The notes under the pieces were generated by a model that ran no database searches, was not told where the DNA came from, and saw only the letters and a list, made by a program, of their open reading frames with translations. The position numbers and the translations under genes were made by a program. Positions 649-16,960 of a stretch of DNA of 64,000 bases are shown piece by piece (positions within the stretch are counted from its first letter, which is position 1; every line of letters begins with the position of its first letter). This DNA comes from Ancylobacter sp. Lp-2. Its GTDB lineage: Bacteria > Pseudomonadota > Alphaproteobacteria > Rhizobiales > Xanthobacteraceae. Location: positions 186,001-250,000 of the forward strand of contig NZ_JAJALI010000005.1 in the NCBI RefSeq assembly GCF_020523795.1, read 5' to 3'.

Positions 649-3600
649 GTGAGCGGCTGGATGGCTCGTGGCGTCAATCGATCTCAGCCTGAAGTGGCAG
701 TCCTCGGATATGCCTGCCGGCTCCCGGGCGCGCAGTCGCCGGACGAATTCTGGAATGTTCTGGCCAAGGGCGAGTGCACCGTTTCCGACAAGCCGGTCGG
801 CCGCTGGGACGTCGACCGCTTCCTGCATCCCGGCCCGGCTCCCGGCTACAGCTACACCTTCGCCGGCGGCTATCTCGATGACCCGCTCGGCTTCGACGCC
901 GGCGTGTTCGGCGTCTCCCCGCGCGAGGCGGCACAGATCGACCCGCAGCAGCGGCTGCTGCTCGAAGTGGTGTGGGAGGCGCTGGAAAGCGCCGGCATGG
1001 TGCCCTCGCGCCTGAGCGGCAAGGGCGTCGGCGTCTATGTCGGCGCCTCCAATGTCGACTACCAGACCCACACCTCGGTCGACCTCGCGGCGATCCAGAG
1101 CCATTTCATCGCCGGCAACTCGCTGTCGATCATCGCCAACCGGGTCTCCTACGCCTTCGACTGGTCCGGCCCCAGCATGACCATCGACGCGGCCTGCGCC
1201 TCGTCCTTCGTGGCGCTGCACCAGGCGCTCCGGGCGCTGCGCGACGACGAGATCGACCTCGCCGTGGTCGCCGGTGCCAACCTGCTGCTTTCCCCGGCGC
1301 CGTTCATCGGCTTCTCCGCCGCGCGCATGCTCTCGCCGACCGGCCGCTGTCGGCCGTTCTCCGCCAAGGGCGACGGCTATGTGCGCTCCGAGGGCTTCGC
1401 CGCCATCGTGCTGCGCCGCCTTCCCGATGCCCGCGCCAAGGGCGAGGCGGTGCGCTCGGTGATCGTCGCCTCCGGCATCAATTCCGACGGCCGCACCACC
1501 GGTATCTCGCTGCCCTCGGCCAGGGGCCAGCAGGCCCTGCTCGAAGCGGTCTATGAGGAGCACGGGATCGACGTCGACCGCCTCGCCTTCATGGAGGCGC
1601 ACGGCACCGGCACGCCGGTCGGCGACCCGGTGGAAGCGGGCGCCATCGGCGCCGGCATCGCACAGAAGCGCTCGCGGCCGCTGCCCATAGGCTCGGCCAA
1701 GTCGAATGTCGGCCATCTCGAACCAGTCTCCGGCCTCGTCGGCCTGCTGAAGGCGTCGATGGCGCTGCAGAAGCGCTGGCTGCCGCGCACCGCCATGCTC
1801 GACGAGCTCAACCCGAACATCGATTTCGCGGCGCTGAACCTCGCTCCGACCACCGAGCCGATCGCGCTCGACGATGGCGACGAGCCGTTGCTGGCCGGCG
1901 TGTGCAATTTCGGCTTCGGCGGCACCAACGCCCATATCGTGCTGCGCGGCCCCACCCCGCAGGAAGCGGCGGGCGCGCGCGCCGCGCAGCCCCCGGCGGC
2001 GCAGATGCTCACCATCTCCGCGCAGACCCCGGACGCGCTGTCCGCGCTGGCGCTGCGCTACGCCGACGCGGTGGAGCGCGAGAGCGTGCCGCTGTCGGCG
2101 CTCGCCAATGCGGCCGCGCATCGCCGCGAAGCCATGGAGCACCGGCTGGCGATCCCGCTCGGCGCGACGGATGACGTCGTGCAGTCGCTGCGCGAGGCCG
2201 GCAATGGCGGGGCACCCGCCTTCGGCGCGCGGGGCACCGCCGTGAAGACCGGGGCGAAGGGCAGCGATGCCAGGCCGGACGGCAAGACCGCCTTCGTGTT
2301 TTCCGGCAATGGCTGCCAATGGGCCGGCATGGGCCGACGCGCCTATGCGCGCAACGCGGTGTTCCGCGCCCATATCGACCGGATCGATACCCTGTTCGCG
2401 CCGCTGGCCGGCTGGTCGATCGCCGAGCGTCTCGACGCCGACGACCTCGCCGCCAAGCTGAAGGAAACCTCGACCGCGCAGCCGCTGCTGTTCGCCATCC
2501 AGTCGGCGCTGGTGACGGCGCTGGGCGCGCAGGGCATCGCCCCGCATATGGTGCTCGGCCACAGCGTCGGCGAAGTGGCGGCGGCCTGGGCGGCCGGCGC
2601 GCTCGACCTCGCGGAGGCGGTGCGCCTCATCCATCTGCGCAGCCTTCACCAGGAGCGGATCAAGGGCCAGGGCCGCATGGCGGTCGCCGCCGCCGGCGCT
2701 GCCGACGTGCAGGCCTTCCTCGACCGCCACGGGCTCGACCGCGTCGCCATCGCGGCGGTGAACGGGCCGGCCTCGGTGACGCTGAGCGGCCCGGCCGAGG
2801 ACATCAAGGTGACCCAGAAGCGGATGCGGCAGGACCGCATCCCGGTGATCCTGATGGACCTCGACTACCCCTTCCATTCGGCGCTGCTCGACCCGCTCGA
2901 GGCCGAGATGATCGCCGATCTCGGCGACCTGCATGCCCTCTCCGGCACGCTGCCCTTCATCTCCACCGTCACCGGCGACGTGATGGACGGCGCGGCCTGC
3001 GATGCCGGCTATTGGTGGCGCAACATCCGCCAGCCGGTGCTGTTCTCCGCCGCGGTGGAACGCGCCGCCGAGCTCGGCGCCTCGCTCTTCCTCGAAGTGT
3101 CGCCGCGCCCCATCCTCACCGGCGCGATCTCCGAGACGCTGAAGGCGCTCGACAAGCCGGGCGAAGCCGTCGCCGGGCTCAGTGACGACGAGGGCGCCGC
3201 CGACCCGATCTGGGACATCACCGCGCGCCTCGTCGCCCGCGGCGCCGAGGTCGACACCGCAGCGCTCTATGGCGAGGAGACCGCCAACACCACCGAGTTG
3301 CCGCTCTATCCCTGGCAGCGCTCGCGCCACTCGCTGCCGCAGACCTCCGAGCGGCTGAAGTTCTTCGGCGCCAACTTCACCGTCGGCCAGCGGCGGCATC
3401 CGCTGATCGGCTCGCGCGTCACCGAGGGCGCCAATGAGTGGCGCCAGTCGCTCGACACCAAGATGCTGCCCTATCTCGCCGACCATGTGGTCGACGGCAC
3501 GCCGCTGATGGCCGCCGCCTGCTATCTGGAGATGATCCTCGCGGTCGGCCGCGACGTGTATGGCGCGGTGCCGCTGGCGGTGCGCGACCTCGACATCGAA

Positions 3601-6600
3601 CGCCCGATGAGCCTCCCGCCCGAGGTGATGCGCGAAATCTCCATGCGCTACACGCCGGAGAGCGGGGTGGTGGAGATCTGGAGCCGCCGCCGGCTCTCCT
3701 CCGACGACTGGGTGCGCCATGCGCATGGGCAGGTTCTGGCCTTCACCGGCACGCCGGGGCTGCCGCCGGAAGGCCCCGGCGAGGCGCGCAAGCCGCTCTC
3801 GGGAGCGCGCGAAGTCTATAACGCCACCCGCGCCGCCCGGCTGGACTACGGCCCCAGCTTCGCCCGTGTCATCCGCCTCGACCGCGATGCCGACGCCCAG
3901 ATCGTCGACATGAACGAAGGGGAGCTGCCGCTCGGTGCCTTCGCCGCCGAGCACGTGCTCGACCCGACCGGCTTCGACGCCAGCCTGCACGGGCTGCTGC
4001 TCTCCCGCGCCGCCACCGCCGAGGGCGAGGTACGCTGCGACCTGCCGGTGCGGCTGCGCTCGGTCGTCGTGCTGAAGCCGCACAGCCCGATCCGCAAGGC
4101 GATCGTGCGGCGCACGGTGGAGACCAGCACCTCCACCACCGTCGACATCGCCCTGCTGGCGCCGGATGGCGAGATCGTCGCGCTGCTGGAGGGCGTCTAT
4201 CTGCGCGCCGTGGTGCTGTCGCGCCGCAGCGCTGACCAGCGCGTGCTGCGGCTCGACGAGGTGATGAGCCTCGCCCATGCCGCGCCGCCGGTGCTCGACC
4301 TCGCGCATGGGCTGCCCATCGTCGCGACGGACGCGGCGGCGCCGGATGCCTGGCTGCTGTTGCAGGCCTTCACCCTGTCGCTGGCGCGCCGCTTCCTGGA
4401 ACGCGAGGGCACCGCGCCGCACGGCGTCGCCGAGCTCACCGCCACGCCGCTCGCCCGCCGCATCGCCGCGCTGGTCGAGCAGTTCGAGGCCCGCGACGGC
4501 CGGCTCGACCTGCCGGAGCCGGAAGCCATTCTCGCCGCCATGGTCGAGGGCATGCCTTCGGCTCAGGCCGAGATCATCCTCGCCGCGCACGCGCTGGCGC
4601 ATCTGGAACCGGCCGCCCGCAGCGGACAGGCGACCGCGCATGCCGCGACGCTGACCGCCTCGCAGAAGGAACAGGTGAAGGCGGAGCTGTCCATCTTCGC
4701 CGCCGGCCGCGAGCGGTTCGCCGCCACCCTCGCCGCCGCGGTGAAGGCCAGCGCGCCGGCGCCGCTCGCGGTGCTGTGGGCGCAGCCCTGGGATCTCGGC
4801 GCCTGGCGCCTGCTGGTGCCGTATCTGCGCAACGATTCCATCCTGCTGTCGCTGGCGACCGACAAGCGCGAGGCGTTCGACGCCTTCCTCGCCCATCACG
4901 GCCGTGGCCTGACGCTCGGCCATGTCGACCTCACCGAAACGGACGGCAATGGCGGCCGCTTCGACCTGCTGCTCGGCGGCGAGGCCGGTGCGACCCGCGC
5001 CGCCGCCCGACGCGTGAAGGCCGGCGGCCTGGTGGCGCAACTGGCGCAGACACCGGACCCGGTGGCCGAGCTGCTGCTGGGCCTTGCCGGCCTGCTGGAC
5101 GAGCCAAGGCCCGGCGAGCCGGGCGGCGAGCGGGCGGCGTTCCATATCGGGCTGCTGCGCGACCAGTTCCGCGTCGAAGACGCGCTGCCGGAATGGGGCG
5201 ACGGCTTCACCCGGCTGACCACGGGCCGGATCGCGCCCAAGGAGGCCGAACCGGCCGCCCCGGTGGCGATCCTCGTTCATGGCGCGACCGGCGCCACCGC
5301 GCAGGCGGTGCTGCGCGAACTCGCCGATCTCGCCGAGGTGAGCGTAGCCGGCGAGCGGCTCGACGACGCCGATCTCGGCGACGCGACCGACCTGCTGCAC
5401 TTCATCGACACCAGCCTGCCCGCCACCCGCGCCAGCGACGCGCTGAGGCAGCGGCTGCTCGACCTGGTGGCCGCTCTCGTCGCCGTTGCCCCCAAGACCG
5501 AACGCCTGCGCTACTGGCTGGCGCTGCCGGTCGGCGCCGGCAAGGAGCCGAAGCCGACGGAGCCGCGGGCGGCGAGCAAGCCACCGGCGAGCGAGGTGCT
5601 GGCGACGGCGCATGCGCTGCGCGCCTTTGCCCGCGTCGCCCGCAACGAATTCCCGATGATCGACATCCGCGTCGTCGAGTTCGATACGCGGGTGGCGCCG
5701 GCGACGGTGGCTCTCGACCTCGCCGCGACGCTGCTGCAGAACTCGCCGGAAACCGAGCTGCGCATCGGCGATGCCGGCGTCTACGTGCCGCGGGCGCGGC
5801 GCGGCACCCGCCAGCGCCTCCGCCCGGTCTCCGACACGGCGCGCGCGGTGCTGCGGCCGAAGAACGCCCTGTCGACGCAGGATGTCGCCTGGAGCCTCGA
5901 GGCGCGGCCGACGCCGGAAGGCGACGCCGTCGAGATCGAGGTCGCCTATACCGGCCTCAATTTCCGCGACGTGATGGTCGCCTTCGGCATCCTCGACGAG
6001 GACCTGCTCTCCGGCGGACTGACGCGGGCGGCCTTCGGCTTCGAATGCTCGGGCACGGTGACGAGGGTCGGACCGGACTGCCGGGACTTCGCGCCCGGCG
6101 ACCGGGTGATGGCCTTCACCTCCGGCGCCTTCGCCTCGCATGTCGTCGCGGCGCCGGCGCATGTGCAGAAGGTGCCGGACGGCCTGTCGCTGGAAGAAGC
6201 CGCCACCATCCCGGTGGCCTTCGCCACCGCCTGGTACGCGCTGGAGGAAGCCGGACGGCTCCGCACCGGCGACCGGGTGCTGATCCACGGTGCCGTCGGC
6301 GCGGTGGGCATGGCGGCGATCCAGATCGCACGCCGGCGCGGCGCCACGGTCTATGCCACCGCCGGCACGCCGGCGCGCCGCGCGCTCGCCTGCGCGCTGG
6401 GAGCCGAGAAGGCCTTCGATTCCCGCTCGCTGGAGTTCGTCGACGCGCTGACCCAGATCGGCGGTGTCGACGTGGTGCTCAACTCGCTGTCGGGCGAGGC
6501 GATGCGCGAGGGCGTCCGGGTGCTGCGTCCGTTCGGCCGCTTCCTCGAACTCGGCAAGCGCGACTATCTCAACAACACCACGCTGCAATTGCGCCCCTTC

Positions 6601-8073
6601 GTGCACAATCTCAGCTATTTCGGTATCGACCTCGACGAGTTGCTGAAGCACGACACCGACAGCGTCGCCCGTATCATGGGCGCGCTCGGCACCCATCTCG
6701 CCGACGGCTCGCTGCGCCCGCTGCCCTATCGGCGCTTCGCCGCCGACGACGTGGCGGACGCGCTGCACCTGATGCGCAGCGCCGAGCACCTCGGCAAGCT
6801 GATCGTCCAGCCGGCGCGGGCCGGCGCGGAGGATGCCGGCGTATTCCGCGCCGCCGCCGATGGCGTGCATCTGGTGGTCGGCGGCACGGCGGGCTTCGGC
6901 CTCGCCACCGCCTTCTGGCTCGCCGATCGCGGTGCCACCCATGTCGCGGTCGCCTCGCGGCGCGGGGTGATCGACCCGGCCTTCGCCGACACCGTCGCCG
7001 CCTTTGCGGCGCGCGGCGTGACGTTCTCGGCCTATACGCTCGACGCGACCGACGCCACGGCCGTGGAGGCGCTCGTCGGCGACCTCAGGGCGCGCTTCGG
7101 CACGCTGCGCGGGGTGGTCCACACCGCGCTGGTGCTGGAGGACGGCATGCTGTCCAGCCTCACCCCGACGAGCCTCGACACGGTGCTGAAGCCGAAAGTC
7201 GCCGGTGTGCTGGCGCTGGACAAGGCGACGCGGGCGGCACCGCTCGACTATTTCGTCGTCTATTCCTCGGCGACGACGCTGATCGGCAGCCCCGGACAGG
7301 GTGCCTATGTCGCCGCCAACGCCTTCCTCGAAGGCGTGGCGCGCCGGCGCCGGCAGGAAGGCCTGCCGGGCCTCGCCATCGGCTGGGGCGCGATCTCCGA
7401 CACCGGCGTCATCGCCCGCGACGCCGAACTCGCCGAGCGGCTGCGGCGCACCACCGGCGTCAACGGCATCACCTCGGCCGACGGCCTCGCCCAGCTCGGC
7501 CGGCTGCTCGCCGACCAGGACAGGGCCGGGCCGGTGCATTTCTTCGCCGATATCGGCCATTCCATGGTGGCGGAGAAGCTCGCCATCCTCACCTCCCCGA
7601 CCTTCGCCGGCCTGCTCGGCGGGGAAAGCCGGGACTTCGAGGAAGGCGAGGTCGATTTCGCCAGCCGGCTCGCCGGCAAGTCGGAAGCGGAAGCCAAGCA
7701 GATCCTCGGCGAAGCCATCGGGCGCGAGATCGCCAAGATCCTGCGGCTGGCGCCGGAAGCGGTCGACATCAAGCGGCCGCTGGGCGAGATGGGCATGGAT
7801 TCGCTGATGGCGCTGGAACTGCGGCTCGCTTTGGAGCAGAGCTGCGGCATCGAGCTGCCGATCATCTCGATCAGCGACCGCACGGTGGAGGACATCGTCG
7901 TCCAGGCCTTGCCGCTGCTGCAGGGCGACGGGCAGGAGGCCGCCGAGGTTGCCTCCGAGGCCGATGCCATTGCGGCCGCCAAGCTGGAATCCTTCAGCCT
8001 GGCGCCGAGCGAGACCGAGAGCACCGCGGCCGCCATCGCCCAGCTCGATTACAGCGGAGAACGCCTGACATGA
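649..8073 (+). CDS. Single-module, fully reducing type I polyketide/fatty acid synthase (RkpA-like), KS-AT-DH-ER-KR-ACP
   Basis: This 2474-residue cytoplasmic enzyme probably builds a saturated acyl chain iteratively. Domains in order (numbering from the GTG at 649): ketosynthase about 15-430 with catalytic Cys183, His318 and His356; acyltransferase about 545-850 with GHSVGE and Ser639; dehydratase about 915-1200 with His946 and Asp1110; a linker without a visible SAM motif; enoyl reductase about 1750-2050; ketoreductase about 2070-2250; ACP with DSL Ser2385. No thioesterase follows the ACP, and only about 90 residues remain. The stop overlaps the next start (ATGA), so the alpha-oxoamine synthase probably offloads the chain. 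Closest idea from known systems is RkpA of the Sinorhizobium rkp-1 K-antigen region. An ATG at 661 is an alternative start; neither start has a strong ribosome site. Confidence 0.9.
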   Translation: MSGWMARGVNRSQPEVAVLGYACRLPGAQSPDEFWNVLAKGECTVSDKPVGRWDVDRFLHPGPAPGYSYTFAGGYLDDPLGFDAGVFGVSPREAAQIDPQQRLLLEVVWEALESAGMVPSRLSGKGVGVYVGASNVDYQTHTSVDLAAIQSHFIAGNSLSIIANRVSYAFDWSGPSMTIDAACASSFVALHQALRALRDDEIDLAVVAGANLLLSPAPFIGFSAARMLSPTGRCRPFSAKGDGYVRSEGFAAIVLRRLPDARAKGEAVRSVIVASGINSDGRTTGISLPSARGQQALLEAVYEEHGIDVDRLAFMEAHGTGTPVGDPVEAGAIGAGIAQKRSRPLPIGSAKSNVGHLEPVSGLVGLLKASMALQKRWLPRTAMLDELNPNIDFAALNLAPTTEPIALDDGDEPLLAGVCNFGFGGTNAHIVLRGPTPQEAAGARAAQPPAAQMLTISAQTPDALSALALRYADAVERESVPLSALANAAAHRREAMEHRLAIPLGATDDVVQSLREAGNGGAPAFGARGTAVKTGAKGSDARPDGKTAFVFSGNGCQWAGMGRRAYARNAVFRAHIDRIDTLFAPLAGWSIAERLDADDLAAKLKETSTAQPLLFAIQSALVTALGAQGIAPHMVLGHSVGEVAAAWAAGALDLAEAVRLIHLRSLHQERIKGQGRMAVAAAGAADVQAFLDRHGLDRVAIAAVNGPASVTLSGPAEDIKVTQKRMRQDRIPVILMDLDYPFHSALLDPLEAEMIADLGDLHALSGTLPFISTVTGDVMDGAACDAGYWWRNIRQPVLFSAAVERAAELGASLFLEVSPRPILTGAISETLKALDKPGEAVAGLSDDEGAADPIWDITARLVARGAEVDTAALYGEETANTTELPLYPWQRSRHSLPQTSERLKFFGANFTVGQRRHPLIGSRVTEGANEWRQSLDTKMLPYLADHVVDGTPLMAAACYLEMILAVGRDVYGAVPLAVRDLDIERPMSLPPEVMREISMRYTPESGVVEIWSRRRLSSDDWVRHAHGQVLAFTGTPGLPPEGPGEARKPLSGAREVYNATRAARLDYGPSFARVIRLDRDADAQIVDMNEGELPLGAFAAEHVLDPTGFDASLHGLLLSRAATAEGEVRCDLPVRLRSVVVLKPHSPIRKAIVRRTVETSTSTTVDIALLAPDGEIVALLEGVYLRAVVLSRRSADQRVLRLDEVMSLAHAAPPVLDLAHGLPIVATDAAAPDAWLLLQAFTLSLARRFLEREGTAPHGVAELTATPLARRIAALVEQFEARDGRLDLPEPEAILAAMVEGMPSAQAEIILAAHALAHLEPAARSGQATAHAATLTASQKEQVKAELSIFAAGRERFAATLAAAVKASAPAPLAVLWAQPWDLGAWRLLVPYLRNDSILLSLATDKREAFDAFLAHHGRGLTLGHVDLTETDGNGGRFDLLLGGEAGATRAAARRVKAGGLVAQLAQTPDPVAELLLGLAGLLDEPRPGEPGGERAAFHIGLLRDQFRVEDALPEWGDGFTRLTTGRIAPKEAEPAAPVAILVHGATGATAQAVLRELADLAEVSVAGERLDDADLGDATDLLHFIDTSLPATRASDALRQRLLDLVAALVAVAPKTERLRYWLALPVGAGKEPKPTEPRAASKPPASEVLATAHALRAFARVARNEFPMIDIRVVEFDTRVAPATVALDLAATLLQNSPETELRIGDAGVYVPRARRGTRQRLRPVSDTARAVLRPKNALSTQDVAWSLEARPTPEGDAVEIEVAYTGLNFRDVMVAFGILDEDLLSGGLTRAAFGFECSGTVTRVGPDCRDFAPGDRVMAFTSGAFASHVVAAPAHVQKVPDGLSLEEAATIPVAFATAWYALEEAGRLRTGDRVLIHGAVGAVGMAAIQIARRRGATVYATAGTPARRALACALGAEKAFDSRSLEFVDALTQIGGVDVVLNSLSGEAMREGVRVLRPFGRFLELGKRDYLNNTTLQLRPFVHNLSYFGIDLDELLKHDTDSVARIMGALGTHLADGSLRPLPYRRFAADDVADALHLMRSAEHLGKLIVQPARAGAEDAGVFRAAADGVHLVVGGTAGFGLATAFWLADRGATHVAVASRRGVIDPAFADTVAAFAARGVTFSAYTLDATDATAVEALVGDLRARFGTLRGVVHTALVLEDGMLSSLTPTSLDTVLKPKVAGVLALDKATRAAPLDYFVVYSSATTLIGSPGQGAYVAANAFLEGVARRRRQEGLPGLAIGWGAISDTGVIARDAELAERLRRTTGVNGITSADGLAQLGRLLADQDRAGPVHFFADIGHSMVAEKLAILTSPTFAGLLGGESRDFEEGEVDFASRLAGKSEAEAKQILGEAIGREIAKILRLAPEAVDIKRPLGEMGMDSLMALELRLALEQSCGIELPIISISDRTVEDIVVQALPLLQGDGQEAAEVASEADAIAAAKLESFSLAPSETESTAAAIAQLDYSGERLT

Positions 8074-9455
8074 CGGAGCGGGACACGCCGGGCCGGCTCT
8101 CGCAGGGCCAGGTCGGTGCACTCATCGCCCAGATGCGCTCGGTCAAGACCGCGGAGGCGCCCGCCGCCGCGCCCCAGCGTGCCAAGGCCAAGGGCTTCAG
8201 CCAGCTCGCCGCCTTCCAGACCATGGCGCAGCAGAAGGCGGTGAGCGAGATGCTGGGGGTGAAGAGCCCCTATTACCGCGTCCACGAAGCCAAGGCCGGG
8301 CGCTTCACCCGCATCGACGACCGGGAGGTGCTCAACTTCACCTCCTACGACTATCTCGGCCTGAACGGCCATCCCGAGGTGTCGCAGGCCGCAGCCGACG
8401 CCATCGCCCGCTTCGGCACCTCGGTGTCGGGCAGCCGCATCACCTCCGGCGAACGGCCGGTGCATGCGGCGCTGGAGCGCTCGCTCGCCGCGCTCTACGA
8501 GGCCGAGGACGCGGTGGTGTTCGTCAGCGGGCACGCCACGGCGGTGTCGTCGATCGCCGCGCTGCTGGGACCGAACGACCTCCTGCTGCACGACGCCTGG
8601 ATCCACAACTGCATCGTCGTCGGCGGGCGGCTGTCGGGCGCGGCGCGGCGCAGCTTCGCGCATAACGACCTCGCCGAGCTCGACGCCATGCTGGCCGCCG
8701 AGCGCGGGCGCTTCGACAATGTGATGATCGTCACCGAGGGGCTGTTCTCCATGGACGGCGACGGCCCCGACCTCGCGGCGCTGGTCGAGCTCAAGGAGCG
8801 CCATGGCTGCTGGCTGATGGTGGACGACGCGCATGGGCTCGGCGTGCTCGGCGCCACCGGCCGCGGCATCGCCGAGCAGTGCGGTGTCGACCCCAGGCGC
8901 ATCGACATCTGGCTGGGCACGCTGTCGAAATCGCTGGCGAGCTGCGGCGGCTATGTCGCCGGCTCGGGCGCACTGGTCGACCTTTTGAAATTCGGCGCGG
9001 CAGGCCTCGTCTACAGCGTCGGCATGCCCACCGCCACCGCCGCCGCCGCCAATGCCGCGCTGGCGGTGATGCTGCGCGAGCCGGAACGGCTCGCCCGGCT
9101 CAAGGCGAACGGCCATCACATGATCGCCCGTCTCGCCGAGCACGGCCTCGACCACGGGCCCGCCTGGGGCTACGGCATCGTGCCGGTGATCATCGGCGAC
9201 GCGCTCCAGACCATCCTGCTGGCGGAACGTCTGCTGGAGCGCGGCGTCTACGCCTTCCCGGTGCTGCCGCCGGGCGTGCCGAACCACTCGGCCCGACTGC
9301 GCTTCTTCGTCTCCAGCGAGCACACGCGCGAGGACATCGACCACGCCGTCGCCGTGCTGGCCGAGGAAAAGCAGGCACTCGCCGAAGCCGGCCTGTCGAT
9401 TGCCAATCTCACGCAATTGCTGGCCCAGCGAAACGGTGCCGCCCGCGCGCGCTAG
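8070..9455 (+). CDS. Alpha-oxoamine synthase, PLP-dependent (RkpG/AONS/serine palmitoyltransferase family)
   Basis: This 461-residue fold-type I PLP enzyme should condense an acyl thioester with an amino acid, with decarboxylation, to give an alpha-amino ketone. The PLP-ring Asp and His are in DDAHG (Asp253, His255) and the Schiff-base Lys287 is in TLSKSL. The core matches 8-amino-7-oxononanoate synthase and serine palmitoyltransferase. About 50 extra N-terminal residues, rich in Ala and Lys, could dock to the ACP of the upstream synthase. Translation is coupled by a 4-bp ATGA overlap with that synthase, and the KpsS-like gene starts 3 bp downstream. With the SDR at 16046-16960 it resembles the SPT/3-ketosphinganine reductase pair and the rhizobial RkpG/RkpH pair. 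The amino acid substrate is unknown; biotin synthesis is unlikely in this context. Confidence 0.88.
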   Translation: MTERDTPGRLSQGQVGALIAQMRSVKTAEAPAAAPQRAKAKGFSQLAAFQTMAQQKAVSEMLGVKSPYYRVHEAKAGRFTRIDDREVLNFTSYDYLGLNGHPEVSQAAADAIARFGTSVSGSRITSGERPVHAALERSLAALYEAEDAVVFVSGHATAVSSIAALLGPNDLLLHDAWIHNCIVVGGRLSGAARRSFAHNDLAELDAMLAAERGRFDNVMIVTEGLFSMDGDGPDLAALVELKERHGCWLMVDDAHGLGVLGATGRGIAEQCGVDPRRIDIWLGTLSKSLASCGGYVAGSGALVDLLKFGAAGLVYSVGMPTATAAAANAALAVMLREPERLARLKANGHHMIARLAEHGLDHGPAWGYGIVPVIIGDALQTILLAERLLERGVYAFPVLPPGVPNHSARLRFFVSSEHTREDIDHAVAVLAEEKQALAEAGLSIANLTQLLAQRNGAARAR

Positions 9456-9457
9456 GA

Positions 9458-10768
9458 ATGTCCCGCATGTCCGGTCCGGTGAGGACGCTGCTCTTTCTCC
9501 AGGGGCCACCGTCGCATTTCTGGCGTGATCTGGCCGGCTCGTTCGAAGCCGCCGGCCATCGCGTCATCAAGGTCAATTGCTCGACCGCCGAATGGCTCTA
9601 TTGGGGGCGCCGGCGCGCGGTCTCCTATCGCGGCCGGCTCGACGACTGGGGGGCCTGGCTCGCCGCGCTGATCGCCCGCGAAGGCGTGACCGACCTCATC
9701 TATTACGGCGACCAGCAGCCTTATCACCGCATCGCCGCCGAGATCGCCCCCAGGCTCGGCGCCACGCCCCATGTCATCGAATTCGGCTATCTGCGCCCGG
9801 CCTGGATCACGCTGGAGCGCGGCGGCATGGGCGGCTGGTCGCATTTTCCCAGCGACCCCGCCACCATCCGCGCCGTCGCCGGACAGGTCGACAAGCTGCC
9901 GGAGGAGCGGGTCTTCCCCTATTCCTTCGCGCAGGAAGCCTTCAACGAGGTCTTCTACCACCTCGTCAACTACTTCTATTTCTTCTTCTTTCCCCGCTAT
10001 CACGCGGACCGCTTCTATAATCCGCTGCTCGAATATGCCAGCGCCCCGCTGCGCTGGTGGCGGCAGGCACGCCGCGAGAAGGCGGCCACCGCCGCACTCG
10101 CCGCGCGGATGGAGAAGCCGTTCGTGCTCATCCCGCTGCAGCTGCAGAGCGACTACCAGATCCGCGACAACTCGCCCTATTCCGACCAGCGACAGATGCT
10201 GCGGGAGATCTTCGGTTCCTTTGCCCGCCACGCGCCGCCGGAACTCGGCATCGTGGTGAAGCAGCATCCGCTCGACGTCGGGCTGATCGACTGGTGCACC
10301 GAGGTGATGCGGCTGGCCCGCGAGGCCGGTATCGCCGACCGGGTGACCGCGATCGACGGCGGCGCGCTGCCGGACATGCTGGAGCGCGCCACCTCGGTGA
10401 TCGTCATCAACTCGACGGTCGGCCTGCACGCGCTGCGCGTCGGGCGCCCGACCAAGGTGATGGGCGTGGCGCTCTACGACATCGAGGGCCTGACCTCGGA
10501 TGTGCCGCTCGACCGGTTCTGGAGCGATCCCGGCAGCGTCGACATGCAGTTGCTCGACGCCCTGGTGCGCGGCCTCGCCGGCACCATCCAGCTGCGCGGC
10601 TCGTTCTACAACCCGGAAGGCAGCGCGCATGCCCGCGCGATCATCGTCGAGCGGGTCGTGAGCGGCAGCGTCAACGGCGCCGGCGCCTTCGTCGATCCGC
10701 CGCCGCGGCTCGCCGCGGCCCGGGCCGCCAACGCCCGCCGGCGCGCGCGGATCGCCGCCAAAGACTAG
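9458..10768 (+). CDS. Capsule polysaccharide biosynthesis protein, KpsS-like (beta-Kdo transferase family)
   Basis: This 436-residue protein matches the KpsS/KpsC capsule family, whose members add beta-linked Kdo to the lipid terminus of group 2 capsules. Visible family features are the N-terminal LLFLQGPPSHFW stretch, FGYLRPAWITLE in the middle, and a C-terminal GIVVKQHPLD followed by a NSTVGLHAL segment. An aromatic run near residues 168-178 (NYFYFFFFPRYH) may be a membrane-facing surface. The start chosen is the ATG 2 bp after the preceding stop; another ATG lies three codons in. It is the third gene of the lipid-synthase operon, which puts the Kdo-linker enzyme in the same transcript as the presumed lipid acceptor. 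No KpsC-type partner is seen in this window. It converges with KpsT, only 4 bp apart. Confidence 0.8.
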   Translation: MSRMSGPVRTLLFLQGPPSHFWRDLAGSFEAAGHRVIKVNCSTAEWLYWGRRRAVSYRGRLDDWGAWLAALIAREGVTDLIYYGDQQPYHRIAAEIAPRLGATPHVIEFGYLRPAWITLERGGMGGWSHFPSDPATIRAVAGQVDKLPEERVFPYSFAQEAFNEVFYHLVNYFYFFFFPRYHADRFYNPLLEYASAPLRWWRQARREKAATAALAARMEKPFVLIPLQLQSDYQIRDNSPYSDQRQMLREIFGSFARHAPPELGIVVKQHPLDVGLIDWCTEVMRLAREAGIADRVTAIDGGALPDMLERATSVIVINSTVGLHALRVGRPTKVMGVALYDIEGLTSDVPLDRFWSDPGSVDMQLLDALVRGLAGTIQLRGSFYNPEGSAHARAIIVERVVSGSVNGAGAFVDPPPRLAAARAANARRRARIAAKD

Positions 10769-10772: not shown

Positions 10773-11426
10773 CTACTGCATCATCTGACGATAGCGCTCG
10801 ATGGCCTCGTTGAGGTCCTCATACATGGTCAGCTGGCCATTGGACAGGATCATGCCGGTATCGCAGTAATTCTTGATGGTGGACACCGAGTGGGACACCA
10901 TGATGATGCCGGCCCGCGAACGGCGCTCGGCAAAGGCCGCCGCGCAGCGCTGCTGGAAGCGATCGTCGCCGACCGCCGTGGTTTCGTCCACCAGGTAGAA
11001 GTCGAACTCGATGGCCATGGACAGGGCGAAGGCCAGGCGCGAGTTCATACCCGAGGAATAGGTCTCCACCGGCGCATCGATGTCGGGACCGAGCTCGGCG
11101 AAATCATAGACGAAATCCAGCGTCTTCTTGAGATCGGCACCATAGACGCGGGCGAGGAACATCACGTTCTCCCGTCCGGTCATCTTGCCGTGGAAGCCGC
11201 CCGAGAAGCCCAGCGACCAGGACACGCGGGAATTGCGCCAGATCCGCCCCTTATTGGGCTCCTCGGCGCCGGCGATCAGCCGCAGGAAGGTGGATTTTCC
11301 CGCGCCGTTCTGCCCGAGCAGGCCGTAGCTGCGGCGGGGATTGAAGACCACCGAGACGTCGTTCAGCACCACCTTCTTGCGGAAGTTGACGGTGTAGTAC
11401 TTGGTGACGTGATCGACGATGACCAT
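10773..11426 (-). CDS. kpsT: Capsule export ABC transporter, ATP-binding protein (KpsT family)
   Basis: This 217-residue ATPase powers polysaccharide export across the inner membrane with the KpsM permease. Walker A (GQNGAGKS) is at residues 38-45, the signature is the capsule-type YSSGMNSRL (instead of LSGGQ) near residue 120, Walker B is FYLVDET, and the switch His is in MVSHS. Length and the short single-domain form fit KpsT/BexA/CtrD. It is preceded 13 bp upstream by a KpsE-type gene on the same strand, so the two probably share a transcript. The permease gene lies about 17 kb away at 28260-29126, which is unusual because kpsM and kpsT are normally adjacent. Confidence 0.92.
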   Translation of the reverse strand: MVIVDHVTKYYTVNFRKKVVLNDVSVVFNPRRSYGLLGQNGAGKSTFLRLIAGAEEPNKGRIWRNSRVSWSLGFSGGFHGKMTGRENVMFLARVYGADLKKTLDFVYDFAELGPDIDAPVETYSSGMNSRLAFALSMAIEFDFYLVDETTAVGDDRFQQRCAAAFAERRSRAGIIMVSHSVSTIKNYCDTGMILSNGQLTMYEDLNEAIERYRQMMQ

Positions 11427-11439
11427 GGTCGCCTTCCTC

Positions 11440-12723
11440 TCACTTGGTGGGGCGCAGCGTCTGGCGGAAGCGAAGCAGGGCGGTACCGCCTCCCCACAGG
11501 CACAACAGCACGAGCATGCCGAGCAGGACGTCGCGCAGCCGCTTGGGGCCCGAAGGCTCGTCCGGCAGGTTCGGTTGGACGAAGGTGTTGAGGTAGAGCT
11601 GCTGACGCTCGCTGTTGATGCGCGCGCGCTCGAAATTCGACGATGCCAGCGTGTAGAGGCTTTCCGCCAGCGTCCGGTTCAGCTCGATTTCCTCGAAACG
11701 GGAGATGACGTTCGAGATCGAGGCGTGCCCCTGTCCGGCCGGCGAGGTGAGCTGGCGCTCCAATATGTCGATCTGCTCCTGCGTGGCCTCTTCGCGCCAT
11801 TTCAGCACCTGAAGCTGCGGGGCGGCGCTGTTGAGCGTCTTGGAGCCGGTGGAGATCTCCTGGCGCAGGCGCAATTGTTCGGTCTTGAGCGTGGCGATCA
11901 GCCGCTGGATGCCTTCCGCCGCGCTGGTGGGGTCGAGCATGCCGACATCGTTGCGCCAGTCCTTGAGCGCGGCGCGCGCATCACGCAGGCGGGCCTCGGC
12001 ACGCGCCACCTCCTGCTCGCTCGAGGTGATCAGATCGCGCCGGGCGCGCTCGCCCAGCCCGTTGACCAGCTGCTCGCTGAGCTCGACTACCGCCTTGTTG
12101 ATGGTGACGGCGTCCTCCGGCGAGAAGGCGTTGACCCGCAAGGTGATGATACCCGACGGCATCTCGATCGACGTCGTGATGCGGCGGCGCCAGTAGCTCA
12201 CCACATCCTCGATCGACGCCGACGAGCCGAGCCGGCTGAACCAGTCGATGCCCGGCCTGTCGAACATCTTGGAGAGTTGGATCTTCTGCTCGAGCGCCTC
12301 GACGATGGCCCGGCTCTTCAGATACTCGATGACGATCGTCGTATCCTGGTACTGGGTAACCGACGGCAGGCCGGTGAGCGCCGTCACCGTGTCGATGGAG
12401 GTGGTGTCGCCGGCGCGCACCGCGAAGCGCGCCTCGGAGGCGAACTGATCGGAGGCGATGAAGGCGAAATAGAAAATCAGCAGAACAGACGGCGCGACGA
12501 CGCAGAGAAGGAAGCTCGGCCGCGTCACAACCTGCAGGGGTATCGCCAGCCAGGGCACGCGTCGAACGAAATGAACGGCCCGGCGCTGTCCCTTGGCAAT
12601 GCCGCGGACGCGCGCCTGCCGCGCGGTGCGCCGCAGCTCGTCCGACAACCGGGAGCTGAAGGCCAGCAATTCGTTGCGACGAGTCGTGTCAGTCATGGGA
12701 TGCGAGGCCGACTCGACACTCAT
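11440..12723 (-). CDS. Capsule export inner-membrane protein, KpsE-type (first of three)
   Basis: A 427-residue polysaccharide co-polymerase/export protein. It has a basic cytoplasmic N-terminus of about 65 residues, a transmembrane segment at about 70-90, a long periplasmic part with coiled-coil helices (about 200-370), and a second transmembrane segment near 399-417 followed by a short basic tail. The stretch after the first segment (FASEARFAVRAGD) resembles the equivalent part of KpsE/CtrB/BexC. In group 2 capsule systems these proteins bridge the KpsMT transporter and the outer-membrane KpsD channel. It is the upstream member of a kpsE-kpsT operon. The start at 12723 has no clear ribosome site; ATG at 12696 is an alternative. 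Two more homologues lie at 20769-22268 and 32451-33737. Confidence 0.85.
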   Translation of the reverse strand: MSVESASHPMTDTTRRNELLAFSSRLSDELRRTARQARVRGIAKGQRRAVHFVRRVPWLAIPLQVVTRPSFLLCVVAPSVLLIFYFAFIASDQFASEARFAVRAGDTTSIDTVTALTGLPSVTQYQDTTIVIEYLKSRAIVEALEQKIQLSKMFDRPGIDWFSRLGSSASIEDVVSYWRRRITTSIEMPSGIITLRVNAFSPEDAVTINKAVVELSEQLVNGLGERARRDLITSSEQEVARAEARLRDARAALKDWRNDVGMLDPTSAAEGIQRLIATLKTEQLRLRQEISTGSKTLNSAAPQLQVLKWREEATQEQIDILERQLTSPAGQGHASISNVISRFEEIELNRTLAESLYTLASSNFERARINSERQQLYLNTFVQPNLPDEPSGPKRLRDVLLGMLVLLCLWGGGTALLRFRQTLRPTK

Positions 12724-12977: not shown

Positions 12978-13949
12978 ATGCTGTCTGGCCAATCCGCCTT
13001 GAAGGGGCCGCCCGTCGGCCAAGGCATCAAATCCCAACTCGTCACCGGAAACCTCGAATCCTTTTCCGCCTTCGGCGTCGGTGGATGGGTGATCGCCAAG
13101 AACCCGTCCATGGGGCCGCTGGCGGTACATGTCGTCACCCCGCGGAGCTTCGACATCGGAACGCCGACGCTGCCGCGCCCCGACGTGGTGATGGGTGGCT
13201 ACGATACACTGCATTGCGGCTTCAGTTTCCCGCTGACCAATTGGCTCGGTCTCGGCATTCAGCCGGACGATACTGACGAAACCGTGACGCTGCTGGTGAT
13301 GCAGGGCGGCACGCCCTGCTACCGGGCGAATTTCAAGATGTCGCCCGGCAGCCTGCTGGTGCCGCAGTTCCGCTTCAACGTGGAAGCCTGTGCCCGCACC
13401 CACGTCACCGGCTGGGTCGCCTCGTCCGATCCCACCCCGCTCGTGCTGCTCGCGGTCAATGAGCGCGGCGAGGAACACCGTTTCGCACCGGGAATGGAGC
13501 GCGCCGACCTCGACGCCGACGCCCGCGCGTTCTGGGAGCCGCTGCCGCTGCGCTTCCTGCTGCGCCAGAGCCGGCTGCAGCTGTTCGCCGAACAGAGGGG
13601 GCGGCGCTCCCTCCTCGCCGAATTGAGCCCGCCCAAGGTCGTGACCTTCCTCGAGCAGCCGATCGAGGAACAGCTACGCGCCGGGCTGCGTCCCGATTTC
13701 CTCAAGGGTTGGGCGGTCAATTTGCTGGCGCCGGGCCGACGTCCCAAGGTGGTGCTGAGCGCCGGCGCGGAGGAGATCTGGTCCGCCTACACGACGCTCT
13801 ACCGCCGCGACATCGCGGCGCAGACCGGCATGGACGGTTTCTGCGCCTTTTCCGCGCCGCTCGGCATGATCCCCGCCGACACGCCGTGGACGCTGTCGGT
13901 CCGGGACGGCGAGGAGGTCCACACACTCGCCAGCTCCGAGGAAGCCTGA
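12978..13949 (+). CDS. Protein of three GW...GF repeats, function unknown (capsule locus)
   Basis: A 323-residue protein with no signal peptide, membrane helix or known catalytic motif. It contains three copies of a roughly 50-residue pattern: Gly-Trp, then a Pro-containing turn, a beta-rich stretch and, in two copies, a closing Gly-Phe. Gly-Trp occurs at residues 36-37, 145-146 and 244-245, and Gly-Phe at 81-82 and 287-288; the middle copy ends in Leu-Pro-Leu-Arg-Phe instead. The same pattern starts the protein at 33787-34893. The ATG at 12978 is chosen for its GGGGAG site ten bases upstream; a GTG at 12882 would add 32 residues. Its stop overlaps the next start by one base (TGATG), so it is translated with the GT4-GT2 fusion and may be its partner. 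Function is not known. Confidence 0.7.
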   Translation: MLSGQSALKGPPVGQGIKSQLVTGNLESFSAFGVGGWVIAKNPSMGPLAVHVVTPRSFDIGTPTLPRPDVVMGGYDTLHCGFSFPLTNWLGLGIQPDDTDETVTLLVMQGGTPCYRANFKMSPGSLLVPQFRFNVEACARTHVTGWVASSDPTPLVLLAVNERGEEHRFAPGMERADLDADARAFWEPLPLRFLLRQSRLQLFAEQRGRRSLLAELSPPKVVTFLEQPIEEQLRAGLRPDFLKGWAVNLLAPGRRPKVVLSAGAEEIWSAYTTLYRRDIAAQTGMDGFCAFSAPLGMIPADTPWTLSVRDGEEVHTLASSEEA

Positions 13950-16033
13950 TGTCCGCTTCGATCGCCATCGCCACCGCGGACTTCGCCGGGCCGGTCCGCA
14001 ATGGCGGGGTCGGCACGGCGCTGCGCGGCCTCGCCGAAACCCTGGTCGATGCCGGCCACAAGGTGACGGTGATCTACGCCAACCCGAATTACGAGGTCGG
14101 CGACGCCGCCATGTGGCGGGAATCGCTCGGGCGCGACGGCATCGGCTTCCAGGAACTGGACCCGTCGGTCCTCGAGAACGTCGCCGTCCCGGCCATGGCC
14201 GGCGGCGGCTCGGACCCGCTGCGCTCCTATGCGGTGTACCGGCATTTGCGCGAGACGCATTACGACATCGTCCATGTCGCCGACTATCTCGGCATCGGCT
14301 ACTACCCGGCTCTGGCCAAGCGCGCCGGCCTGCTCGACTGCGGCCCGATCGTCGCGCAGCTGCACGGCCCGACCGCCTGGTCGATGCGCTGGAGCAATGC
14401 GCCGGTGATCAGCCCCAACGTGCTGTTCCGCGAGGCGATGGAGCGTGGCTCGGTGCAGCACGCCGACGCCATCCTGTCGCCCAGCGAGTACATGCTGTCC
14501 TTCCTGCGCAATGACGGCTGGACGATGCCGCCGACGGTGCGGGTGATCCAGAACATCCTGCCGAAGGCGCACGCCCAGGCCGGGCACAATATCCGCGCCG
14601 CCCAGACCGCCGGCGCGGTGCCGACCCTCGCCTTCTTCGGGCGGCTGGAGCACCGCAAGGGCCTGAACCTGTTCATCGACGCGCTGCAGATGCTGCAGCA
14701 GCGGGCGAGCCGGCCGTTCAAGGTACTGCTGCTCGGCAAGATCAACGACCCCGCCTATTCAGCCGATATGTTCGGCCTGCGCATGTCGCGGCTCGACATC
14801 GAATGGGAGCTGCTGGACAACCTCAACGCCAACGAGGCGCTGGACCTGCTGCAATCCACCGGCGCGCTCGCCGTCATGCCCTCGCTCAGCGACAACATTC
14901 CCTGCACCATCCAGGAATGCCTGGCGCGCGGCATTCCCTTCCTGTCGACGGAAGTAGGCGGCGGCGCCGAGCTGGTCGCGCCGCAGGACCGCGCCAACTG
15001 CTTCGTGCCGCCGACCGCCTGGGATGTCGGCGCGGCGCTCATCCGCTTCGTCGAGGCCGGCGGCGGGGTGCAGCGCGGGAACATTCCCGCCACCGACGCC
15101 GCGCGCCAGCATGCCGAGTTCACCCGCGAGCTGCTGGAACAAGACGCCGAGCGTCGCCGGACCTCGGTGCCGGCGACGCCGGTGACGTCCGACATCTCGG
15201 TCTGCATCACCCATCGCGACAATCCCGCCGGCCTCGCCCGCGCCATTGACGGCTTCGCCCGCCAGACGTTGAAGCCGCTGGAGATCGTGGTCGGCGACGA
15301 CCATTCGGCGACGCCGGAGGCGCAGGCCTTCCTCGCCGCCCTGCCGGGGCGCAGCGACCTGCCCTTCCCGGTGCGGGTGGCGCGCTCGGACGGCGCCCGC
15401 TTCCCGGCGGCGGCGCGCAATGCCGCGGCAAAGGCGGCCAAGGGCAAGTGGGTGAAGTTCCACGACGACGACAACGTCTCCAAGCCGCAGGAACTGGAGG
15501 TGTTCTCCCGTGCCCTGAGAGCGGGGGATCTCGACCTCGTCACCTGTGCGCTCGACTTCGTGGCCTCCGACGCCGACATGGCGGAGGAGCGCGCCTATCG
15601 CCGCTTCCTGTTCCTCGGCGACGGCGGCGCCGCCTGCTACGTCTTCAACGTGATCGGCGACACCAACTTCATCGTCGACCGCGAGAAATTCCTCGCCGCC
15701 GGCGGCTTCGTCGAGGACGGCTTCCTCTACCACGCGGAAGACTGGCGGGCGCTGGTGCAGGCCAAGCTCGCCGGCCTGCGCATCGGCACGGTCCCGGAGG
15801 CGCTGGTCTGGTACAAGGCGGAGCCATGGCGCAACCAGACCAACTGGCGCAAGGGCGATCTGTGGGGCGCGCGCACCCGCATCAGCGAGCTGGTGCGCCA
15901 GCATCACGGCAACGAGGTCGCCTCGATCCTGCGCCTCGCCCAGGGGCTGCTGTTCACCCCGACCGCACGACAGGCGCCAGCACCGGCGGAGACGCCCGCC
16001 GAGGCGCCCGCCCCCTCCCCCATCCGGGGATGA
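13949..16033 (+). CDS. Two-domain glycosyltransferase (GT4 fused to GT2)
   Basis: A 694-residue cytoplasmic enzyme with two glycosyltransferase modules. Residues 1 to about 400 are a GT-B (GT4-like) domain: the N-terminal GPVRNGGVGTAL glycine-rich loop, a VAQLHGPTAWS acceptor-site stretch, FFGRLEHRKGLNLF and a C-terminal TIQECLARGIPFLSTEVGG donor-site motif. Residues from about 415 are a GT-A (GT2) domain with SVCITHRDNP at its start, the metal-binding Asp506-Asp508 in KFHDDDN, and a YHAEDW acceptor motif. A fusion of this type can add two successive sugars. The C-terminal 25 residues are a Pro/Ala tail. It is translationally coupled to the upstream GW-repeat gene and converges on the SDR gene. 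Sugar specificity cannot be read from the sequence. Confidence 0.88.
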   Translation: MSASIAIATADFAGPVRNGGVGTALRGLAETLVDAGHKVTVIYANPNYEVGDAAMWRESLGRDGIGFQELDPSVLENVAVPAMAGGGSDPLRSYAVYRHLRETHYDIVHVADYLGIGYYPALAKRAGLLDCGPIVAQLHGPTAWSMRWSNAPVISPNVLFREAMERGSVQHADAILSPSEYMLSFLRNDGWTMPPTVRVIQNILPKAHAQAGHNIRAAQTAGAVPTLAFFGRLEHRKGLNLFIDALQMLQQRASRPFKVLLLGKINDPAYSADMFGLRMSRLDIEWELLDNLNANEALDLLQSTGALAVMPSLSDNIPCTIQECLARGIPFLSTEVGGGAELVAPQDRANCFVPPTAWDVGAALIRFVEAGGGVQRGNIPATDAARQHAEFTRELLEQDAERRRTSVPATPVTSDISVCITHRDNPAGLARAIDGFARQTLKPLEIVVGDDHSATPEAQAFLAALPGRSDLPFPVRVARSDGARFPAAARNAAAKAAKGKWVKFHDDDNVSKPQELEVFSRALRAGDLDLVTCALDFVASDADMAEERAYRRFLFLGDGGAACYVFNVIGDTNFIVDREKFLAAGGFVEDGFLYHAEDWRALVQAKLAGLRIGTVPEALVWYKAEPWRNQTNWRKGDLWGARTRISELVRQHHGNEVASILRLAQGLLFTPTARQAPAPAETPAEAPAPSPIRG

Positions 16034-16045
16034 AGGCGCCGCCGG

Positions 16046-16960
16046 TCAGCCTTCAGGTCGACCGGCTTCCGCCGCCCGGATCAGCCGCCGCTGCCGTGCC
16101 CGCAGCAGCGGCGCGATCACGCTGTGGAACAGGTTGACGAAGGCGGTCGGCAGGCCCGGCGCCACGGTGAAGCGACCGGCGAGCGCGCCGGCAATGATCT
16201 TGCGCGCCACCGCCTCGGCCTCCCACTCGCCGCCGCCGGCGGTGATCAGCCGCGTCGCCGCCGGCTTGGTGCGCCGCTCGGCTTCGAGCTGCGGCGTGCG
16301 CGTATCCGGCGGATAGGCCACCGTCACGCCGATGCCCAGCGGCGCCAGCTCGACGCGCAGCACCTCGGCGAGCCCCCTCACCGCGAATTTCGACGGCGCA
16401 TAGGCGGAATAGCCGTAAATGCCGAACAGGCCGGCCCCGGAAGAGACGAAGACCAGCCGGCCGCTCCCGGCCGCCGCCATGTGGCGCGCCGCGGCGTGCG
16501 AGAGATAGAGCGAGCCGAGATAATTGGTGGCGAGCTGCGCCTCATGCGCGGCCAGCGGCTGGTCGAGAAACAGGCCGGGCTCGGCGATGCCCGCGCTGTT
16601 GACCAGCCAGGCCGGCGGACCATGCTCGGCGACCAGTGCCGCCACCGCCGCTTCGCAGGCGCTGGCGTCGCTCACATCGAGCGGACGGGCGACCAACTGC
16701 GCCGCCGGATGATCGCGCCGGATCGTCTCGATCGCTTGGGCAAGCCGCGCCTCGTCACGGGCGAGCAGCGCCACGCGATGCCCCCTCGCCGCCAGCTCGG
16801 CGGCGCAGGCGAGGCCGATGCCGCTCGATCCGCCCGACACGATGGCGAGGGAATCGCGACGGATGGCACCCGACGGAACGCTTCCGCGCGTCTCGGGTTC
16901 ACGTGCAGATTGAGCGGGCTCGCGGTCCGGCTGCATCCTCGGGCCTGCTGGAGCGGACAT
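16046..16960 (-). CDS. Short-chain dehydrogenase of the 3-ketosphinganine reductase type (RkpH-like)
   Basis: A 304-residue SDR with the NAD(P) loop GGSSGIG at 43-49, NSAG at 121-124, and the catalytic Ser173/Ser174, Tyr187 and Lys191 (YAPSK). The stretch YPPDTRTP at 216-223 matches the YPPDTDTP signature of 3-ketodihydrosphingosine reductases, and the hydrophobic C-terminus is also typical. Known members reduce the 3-keto group left by serine palmitoyltransferase; the rhizobial relative is RkpH, paired with RkpG. It probably reduces the product of the alpha-oxoamine synthase at 8070-9455, although it sits in a separate transcript. The ATG at 16960 is used. A GTG at 17032 would add 24 residues, and neither start has a clear ribosome site. 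Confidence 0.87.
   Translation of the reverse strand: MSAPAGPRMQPDREPAQSAREPETRGSVPSGAIRRDSLAIVSGGSSGIGLACAAELAARGHRVALLARDEARLAQAIETIRRDHPAAQLVARPLDVSDASACEAAVAALVAEHGPPAWLVNSAGIAEPGLFLDQPLAAHEAQLATNYLGSLYLSHAAARHMAAAGSGRLVFVSSGAGLFGIYGYSAYAPSKFAVRGLAEVLRVELAPLGIGVTVAYPPDTRTPQLEAERRTKPAATRLITAGGGEWEAEAVARKIIAGALAGRFTVAPGLPTAFVNLFHSVIAPLLRARQRRLIRAAEAGRPEG

Follow-up and report, generated by a model that had tools for sequence, protein, structure and literature searches.

According to the excerpted text of a review, the products of the rkp-1 region synthesise a specific lipid carrier for K-antigen secretion and modify it (PMC4881576), and a special capsule lipid is itself an old idea. The wcbPQRT genes are assigned to capsule lipid biosynthesis in the excerpt of a 2025 paper, where little is said to be known of their functions and WcbQ is described as similar to lipoteichoic acid synthase (PMC11766843). 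A 2025 review gives phosphatidylglycerol (PG) with 3-deoxy-D-manno-oct-2-ulosonic acid (Kdo) as the conserved capsule terminus and contains no word starting with rhizob or sphing (PMC12220298). Among the matches listed from titles and abstract beginnings in the Creative Commons-licensed PMC literature, none gave a chemical structure for the lipid of rkp- or wcb-type capsules. Here, a capsule locus of Ancylobacter sp. Lp-2 is described, located in a stretch of 64,000 nucleotides (contig NZ_JAJALI010000005.1, positions 186,001 to 250,000; hereafter the window). The locus encodes a polyketide-type synthase, an alpha-oxoamine synthase (AOS), a short-chain dehydrogenase/reductase (SDR), a KpsS-like protein, a cytochrome P450 and an LpxL-type acyltransferase. 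On balance we favour the reading that these genes build, by all the steps proposed below, a sphingoid-like lipid for a capsule exported by the ABC-transporter-dependent KpsMTED system.

The rkp-1 region of Sinorhizobium shares with the window the families of the synthase, the AOS, the SDR and the KpsS protein, which stand in one row in ten loci of the Rhizobium/Ensifer type. The window differs from it in that the SDR gene lies on the opposite strand, the KpsS gene follows directly behind the AOS gene and the P450-LpxL pair is part of the cluster; also, no relative of the PF00884 protein of the rhizobial loci was found in the host genome with one Ensifer query or a 19-row alignment, both searches being without a positive control. 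For rkpG, rkpH, rkpI and rkpJ the customary family assignments are used, and the window AOS is of the RkpG/WcbT-like kind. The wcbPQRT capsule loci of Burkholderia and Cobetia have the AOS and the synthase, WcbR, in common with the window, and wcbR/rkpA is linked to capsule clusters in the excerpt of a paper on a sponge symbiont (PMC3908369). The Burkholderiaceae-type loci differ by a gap of 0.85-0.98 kb between the synthase and AOS genes (six loci), and none has a P450 of the window kind in its 10-kb flanks. By analogy, the closest biochemical parallel is fumonisin: the fungal sphinganine-analog clusters, in the sections of one paper available, likewise combine a polyketide synthase, an AOS that joins the chain to an amino acid (alanine for fumonisin), an SDR and hydroxylations, which come later (PMC7376913). 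These clusters differ in that they make secondary metabolites, are unlinked to capsule genes and have another gene organisation. The serine palmitoyltransferase (SPT) pathway of Rhodobacteria is alike in its AOS chemistry and its dedicated acyl carrier protein (ACP); there, as excerpted, spt is found together with an acyl-CoA synthetase and a stand-alone ACP (PMC9386255), whereas the window has a multidomain synthase beside an AOS of a clade apart from SPT. The E. coli group 2 terminus, in which KpsS and KpsC act on lyso-PG, shares a KpsS-like enzyme and KpsMTED export with the window, which differs in that no KpsC was found in its genome and in that a lipid pathway adjoins KpsS. Finally, the Vi antigen, a capsule exported by an ABC transporter, lacks poly-Kdo and has a lipid other than PG, so that PG is not the sole lipid able to act as a capsule anchor, although the Vi anchor, an acylated N-acetylhexosamine in the excerpted text, is unlike the sphingoid-like lipid proposed here (PMC12220298).

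The synthase (649-8073, plus strand; start GTG at 649, with 694 also possible) is an RkpA/WcbR-type single-module protein of 2474 codons. Pfam identified KS, AT, DH, ER (ADH_N/ADH_zinc_N), KR and PP-binding domains, giving the order KS-AT-DH-ER-KR-ACP, the motifs included EAHGTGT, GHSVG and GMDSL, and no thioesterase domain was found by Pfam in 649-8073. The stop codon of the synthase and the start codon of the AOS gene (8070-9455, plus strand) overlap by 4 bp (ATGA). A preliminary description, made from the letters of the window alone, had already proposed a fully reducing single-module synthase without a thioesterase, translationally coupled to an AOS, and had placed four genes (synthase, AOS, KpsS-like and SDR) at the coordinates given here; the Pfam domains, the overlap and the gene positions confirm all of this.

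To compare the gene pair across genomes, named genomes were scanned by means of an AOS alignment, and the best 80 of 573 confirmed candidates were taken as loci (L, our numbering). Two further loci came from a search of 142 genomes of the class, that is, the host genome and 141 others, so that 82 loci were available; those on short contigs were retained in every count. The synthase gene was directly upstream of the AOS gene in 75 of the 82 loci and at most 50 bp away in 68, and the adjacency is above chance. A start codon giving the same 4-bp overlap was available in 52 of the 82, the script having picked the start nearest that position. When neighbouring genes were clustered by the Louvain method on greedily chosen open reading frames, which missed merged or truncated frames, a polyketide synthase was counted in 69 of the 80 loci, against 73 of the 80 and both added loci by direct search. 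Seven loci had no upstream synthase, namely L038 and L094, which are near contig starts, and L072, L073, L084, L088 and L091. In the latter five, a clade AOS stands without an upstream synthase despite the contig extending further. These seven include every one of the four loci that do not belong to Pseudomonadota (L072, Nitrospirota; L084 and L091, Thermodesulfobacteriota; L094, Planctomycetota), and the coupled pair was thus seen in Pseudomonadota alone. The gap between the two genes is occupied by a gene in five Burkholderiaceae-type loci (L080, L083, L086, L089 and L095), its L083 member, the one scanned with Pfam, being LpxC-like, and a weakly GNAT-like cluster gene follows the AOS in four of the same five. 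A short N-terminal segment bearing Leu and Arg was seen by eye ahead of the catalytic core in many AOS proteins, including that of the window, and may be a docking helix.

In a tree of 115 AOS sequences, the synthase-linked rows and two stand-alone relatives formed one group of 85 with a Shimodaira-Hasegawa-like approximate likelihood ratio (SH-aLRT) of 100, apart from rows that included named BioF, SPT, KBL and ALAS proteins. The tree came from a quick search without bootstrap, and L015 and L016 have long branches in it. Eight true AOS among the 28 genomic comparison sequences were named by NCBIfam and the remainder by tree group and motif; the host ALAS, L182, L170, L179, L188, L183 and L186 scored over an NCBIfam cut-off, L176 and L178 over none, and the L003 protein checked with this set is not an AOS. 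The column of Tyr93 in the window AOS, which holds Asn52 in the SPT of S. multivorum, was Tyr in 84 of the 85 clade rows (Cys in L073) and Asn in 30 of 30 other AOS. In the excerpted text on the S. multivorum enzyme, Asn52 reaches the substrate hydroxyl via a water molecule and the motif around the lysine that binds pyridoxal phosphate is GTFSKS (PMC10196870). This lysine, Lys287 in the window AOS, is kept in all 85 clade rows, and the window motif is GTLSKS, with F replaced by L relative to SPT. Ser122 is likewise Ser in 85 of 85 rows, as in SPT and E. coli BioF, where the ALAS group has Thr and the KBL group Val; by alignment with the Thr rows of ALAS this is the ALAS-83 column, a position linked to the choice of amino acid (PMC7376913, in its section 9). 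Because Ser122 is shared with SPT, which uses Ser, and BioF, which uses Ala, and not with ALAS or KBL, Ser or Ala as the amino acid is weakly favoured over Gly. The window AOS lies outside the SPT tree group and its best SPT model gave 296 bits against a cut-off of 640, L183 being a row that passes one such model. Judged by tree and residues, the clade is distinct from SPT, BioF, KBL and ALAS. That it is a further branch of the family, marked by an Asn to Tyr exchange in the amino-acid pocket, is put forward tentatively as part of the joint reading given below. AOS relatives were also seen on Streptomyces plasmids, and one on a Planktothrix plasmid lies under a feature annotated as a type I polyketide synthase.

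The SDR (16046-16960, minus strand) carries the sequence YPPDTRTP, and its closest solved relative is the 3-ketosphinganine reductase TSC10/KDSR: the best PDB match was TSC10, 3-ketodihydrosphingosine reductase (8jat), with 92.8 bits, the next match having 78.1. With the cut for close relatives set at E<=1e-50, relatives of this SDR were found in two of the 141 other class genomes, and both adjoin an AOS (L015 and L016). The order in L016 is AOS, SDR, CdsA-like. The row at 9497-15355 of L015 comprises an AOS, DUF4833, myo-inositol-1-phosphate synthase, the SDR and CdsA-like and LptF/G-like genes, and its gene content suggests a synthase-less operon for an inositol-containing sphingolipid. The motif [FY]PPDT was present in 20 of the 22 SDR rows from the loci that scored above 130 bits (18 of 20 distinct ones, two genes being counted twice where loci overlap) and in none of 32 weaker rows, which include synthase KR domains and SDRs near the synthase-AOS pair in beta- and gammaproteobacterial loci. 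Human KDSR carries YPPDT, and TSC10 differs at that site. RTKPA was considered as a family motif and rejected, as among the sequences compared just the window SDR and TSC10 have it. The activity of the SDR as a 3-ketosphinganine reductase is presumed from these matches. The signature stood as first described; the strand had been missed, and on the minus strand the gene is not co-transcribed with the synthase, AOS and KpsS-like genes and is thus outside their operon.

The lipid genes had been thought to end with the SDR at 16960, but two more genes belong to the set, a cytochrome P450 (24098-25501, plus strand; ATG at 24098 or 24128; FSVGPRVCAG and AGHETT) and an LpxL-type acyltransferase (25503-26393, plus strand; PF03279; HTGNWE, an HX4E motif) that begins 1 bp past the P450 stop codon. 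The nearest structures of the P450 are of the CYP97, CYP4B and CYP102 types, several of which oxidise fatty chains. For counts of P450 and PF05159 genes, the 50 of the 80 loci taken as alphaproteobacterial (some labelled merely Proteobacteria or Rhizobiales) served as AOS genomes. P450 homologues at least 48% identical, weaker matches (33-43%) being left out of the count, were found in 15 of these 50 genomes versus none of the 141 other class genomes, whose highest identity was 40% (Fisher p 3e-10, a value inflated by kinship). An LpxL-type gene stands beside the P450 in 12 of 15 fetched regions (14 genomes), and in L022 too; the regions without it are from Azorhizobium, Bosea and Hongsoonwoonella. 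An SDR of the window kind was in the P450 region in four of the 15, together with the LpxL-type gene in three. P450, LpxL, KpsD and SDR genes form one row in L158 and L169, the SDR, P450 and LpxL genes of L168 diverge from the synthase and AOS genes, and in L156 the P450 gene adjoins the SDR gene. In seven of the 15 genomes the P450 shares its contig with the AOS and lies at most 30 kb away from it. In the subclade of the window AOS (10 rows, SH-aLRT 99) it was present in seven rows, always on the AOS contig, and missing from L017, L018 and L023.

Plasmid records with a close P450 had the LpxL-type gene adjacent in eight of eight cases, these being near-duplicates of fewer strains. On a Shinella plasmid the P450-LpxL pair lies about 13 kb from an SDR-AOS-synthase group with a PF00884-type gene between them; the pair as a substitute for the PF00884 protein was consequently rejected, both being present in one locus. 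A gene near the pair on this capsule plasmid (L117:28798-29601) encodes a fatty acid hydroxylase (PF04116, annotated as sterol desaturase family). Fatty acid hydroxylases of the PF04116 type hydroxylate sphingoid bases in eukaryotes.

The KpsS-like protein (9458-10768, plus strand), a putative beta-Kdo transferase, matched PF05159 over 309 of 310 positions (252.5 bits) and the NCBIfam KpsS equivalog over 376 of 390 (193 bits, cut-off 600). Its ATG follows the AOS stop codon after 2 bp, in keeping with the closeness first reported. This coupling had been regarded as the strongest hint of a capsule lipid; it is present here but is not a general feature, as the immediate succession of AOS and KpsS genes is unusual, being found besides the window in L013, L079 and L081 among the 82 loci. 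No second PF05159 gene was found in the host genome (5.59 Mb, 99.98% complete), which therefore has no KpsC of the known kind, and the pairing of KpsS and KpsC typical of the poly-Kdo linker in group 2/3 capsules is not seen. As in an RkpA-type capsule lipid cluster, the KpsS-like and ABC export genes are present and the synthase is directly before the AOS. In 41 of the 80 loci, members of the KpsS, KpsD, KpsE, KpsT and KpsM clusters lay no more than 10 kb from the AOS, and PF05159 genes were found in 39 of the 50 AOS genomes versus 8 of the 142 class genomes. Among the class genomes themselves, four of the five with an AOS had PF05159 (Fisher p 2e-5); in one of these four, G022, the AOS is stand-alone and the PF05159 genes are on a different contig.

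The order synthase-AOS-SDR-PF00884-KpsS was found in ten rhizobial loci (L044, L045, L048, L050, L058, L061, L065, L069, L070 and L074), in support of the capsule setting and the kinship with the rhizobial rkp set that had been suggested for the window. The PF00884-protein cluster occurs in 28 of the 80 loci (five members scanned with Pfam), which fits the similarity of WcbQ to lipoteichoic acid synthase. A model of the L061 protein (mean predicted local distance difference test score 83) had the phosphoglycerol transferases GacH (E 8e-13) and LtaP as its best PDB matches, with LtaS, likewise such an enzyme, EptC and MCR-1 lower. Phosphoglycerol transferase domains act outside the cytoplasmic membrane and KpsS inside, and the idea suggested by the model, that the PF00884 protein adds phosphoglycerol to the lipid before Kdo, is weakened by this.

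The proposed pathway may be depicted as follows: The synthase would work iteratively and build a long, largely saturated acyl chain, which would stay on the ACP because the synthase has no thioesterase. The AOS would take the acyl-ACP directly and, by the chemistry of its family, condense it with L-Ala or L-Ser under decarboxylation to a 2-amino-3-ketone, and the SDR would reduce the ketone to a 2-amino-3-ol in the manner of 3-ketosphinganine reductases. Thereafter, the P450 would hydroxylate the chain and the LpxL-type enzyme would esterify a hydroxyl, probably the new one, as their linkage suggests. The finished lipid would be the acceptor on which the polysaccharide is started, here probably via one Kdo from the KpsS-like enzyme (one, since no KpsC was found) and without Kdo in close relatives that have no KpsS-type gene, and KpsMTED would export the lipid-linked chain. 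Chain building, release by the AOS and reduction of the ketone had been read in this way before, and the domains, the AOS linkage and the TSC10 match support it. We hold with good confidence that the predicted product is a polyketide-derived long-chain aminoalcohol. Its hydroxylation and O-acylation are likely, judging from the gene pair, and its predicted role as capsule anchor is fairly probable. The placement of Kdo directly on this lipid in Ancylobacter sp. Lp-2 is somewhat doubtful. The joint reading, in which an entire class of capsules has as its anchor, in place of PG, a sphingoid-like lipid of polyketide origin that is acylated and hydroxylated by the P450, with the lipid constant and the Kdo primer optional, is offered as a tentative one.

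Several observations weigh against the pathway. NCBIfam scores of the AOS, the KpsS-like protein and the SDR are all below the curated cut-offs, and a cyanobacterial SPT-like homologue made no ketosphinganine, as stated in the excerpt of its report (PMC8895605). Enrichment tests are inflated by kinship, because the AOS genomes were chosen for similarity to the window. Several beta- and gammaproteobacterial loci have near the synthase-AOS pair a distant SDR without [FY]PPDT, which means that the pair is not always accompanied by a reductase of the KDSR type. The P450 is on a contig other than that of the AOS in 8 of the 15 genomes, and in R. tropici the P450-LpxL pair stands beside genes for a non-ribosomal peptide synthetase-like protein, a multidrug and toxic compound extrusion (MATE) protein and a decarboxylase, no AOS of the window kind on that plasmid being among the matches listed; the pair may therefore act on another lipid. 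A PF05159 gene was not found in 6 of the 10 rows of the window AOS subclade (L019, L020, L023, L024, L025 and L027, of which L023, L025 and L027 are metagenome bins), and the Kdo step is thus not a constant part. The co-occurrence of the four families proposed as a check accordingly held in the ten rhizobial loci with their single row and failed in these six. KpsE- and KpsT-like genes stand beside the synthase and AOS genes in L019, L024 and L025, and within the subclade the lipid pathway apparently varies less than the Kdo transferase does.

An anchor of the same origin and capsule role in which the LpxL-type enzyme acylates the amino group, giving a ceramide analogue, is unlikely. A 3-ketosphinganine-type reductase implies a free sphingoid base, which is N-acylated in sphingolipid pathways according to the sections available of one paper (PMC7376913), and the LpxL-type gene is in one row with the SDR gene in L158, L168 and L169. 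However, it is tied more closely to the hydroxyl-making P450 (12 of 15 regions) than to the SDR (3 of 15). The characterised enzymes of the LpxL family acylate hydroxyls, which also speaks for the O-acyl form. Rather less probable still is a lipid made as proposed that remains free in the membrane or is secreted, its genes lying in capsule loci as co-inherited envelope genes. It would account for the 39 of 80 loci in which no member of the five kps clusters lies within 10 kb (a number owed in part to short contigs), which speak against an anchor, as well as for the stand-alone AOS-SDR groups without a synthase, among them L015 with its inositol-phosphate synthase gene, and for the 11 of 50 AOS genomes without PF05159; the PF05159 enrichment and the lipid-carrier role reported in the excerpt on rkp-1 (PMC4881576) argue for anchoring.

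We regard as improbable that KpsS uses PG as its acceptor, as in E. coli, where KpsS and KpsC act on (lyso-)PG in the excerpted account (PMC7694667), and that what the synthase and AOS make has its place elsewhere in the capsule or envelope. Four of the eight class genomes bearing PF05159 have no AOS of the window type at E<=1e-90, as this explanation would expect, but KpsC was not found in the host genome and the synthase, AOS, SDR, PF00884 and KpsS genes are consecutive in the ten rhizobial loci. An AOS that acts as BioF, with an operon for biotin or another cofactor, is already contradicted and retains next to no probability. The top NCBIfam model of the window AOS is bioF, yet its 354 bits are below the cut-off of 426, which three other AOS of the class pass; no bioB was found over the cut-off in the host genome (best 36.5 versus 225 bits), and GTLSKS and Tyr93 are unlike E. 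coli BioF. At E 1e-35 the host genome has two AOS, that of the window and an ALAS (655 bits, cut-off 339), a third weak match being O-acetylhomoserine sulfhydrylase. With no bioB and an ALAS as the other AOS, the synthesis of 8-amino-7-oxononanoate that the preliminary description had named as a refuting alternative is excluded.

The anchored sphingoid-like lipid favoured here leads from the gene set to a chemical prediction, a long-chain 2-amino-3-hydroxy lipid that carries an ester and extra oxygen. Two new features, the P450-LpxL pair and the Tyr specific to the clade, make the capsule-lipid idea testable. Four points are new within the literature searched: the assignment of the SDR to the KDSR type, the separate AOS clade marked by Tyr, the tie of the P450-LpxL pair to the pathway, and the existence of relatives that have no KpsS-type gene. 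If the pathway is correct, relatives without a KpsS-type gene would start the polysaccharide directly on the lipid, and the capsules of many Alpha-, Beta- and Gammaproteobacteria would be anchored by means of sphingolipid-type chemistry.

The GC content of the window is 68.4%, and the capsule locus takes up about 34 kb at its start, with several glycosyltransferase genes and export genes around the lipid genes. A promoter and terminator scan gave a result at chance level, a tandem-repeat scan nothing informative and an Rfam scan zero matches at the gathering score. Profile matches (Pfam/NCBIfam) identified a KpsT-like ABC ATPase for polysaccharide export (10773-11426, minus strand) and a KpsM-like ABC transporter membrane protein (28260-29126, minus strand), and a KpsD/VexA-like outer-membrane polysaccharide exporter (19587-20768, plus strand) has Poly_export and SLBB domains. 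Proteins of the KpsE/BexC/CtrB family are encoded at 11440-12723 (minus strand; TIGR01010 244 bits, cut-off 437), 20769-22268 (plus strand; 137 bits) and 32451-33737 (plus strand; 118 bits), so that the annotated genes of the first 36 kb comprise three members of this family against one KpsM and one KpsT.

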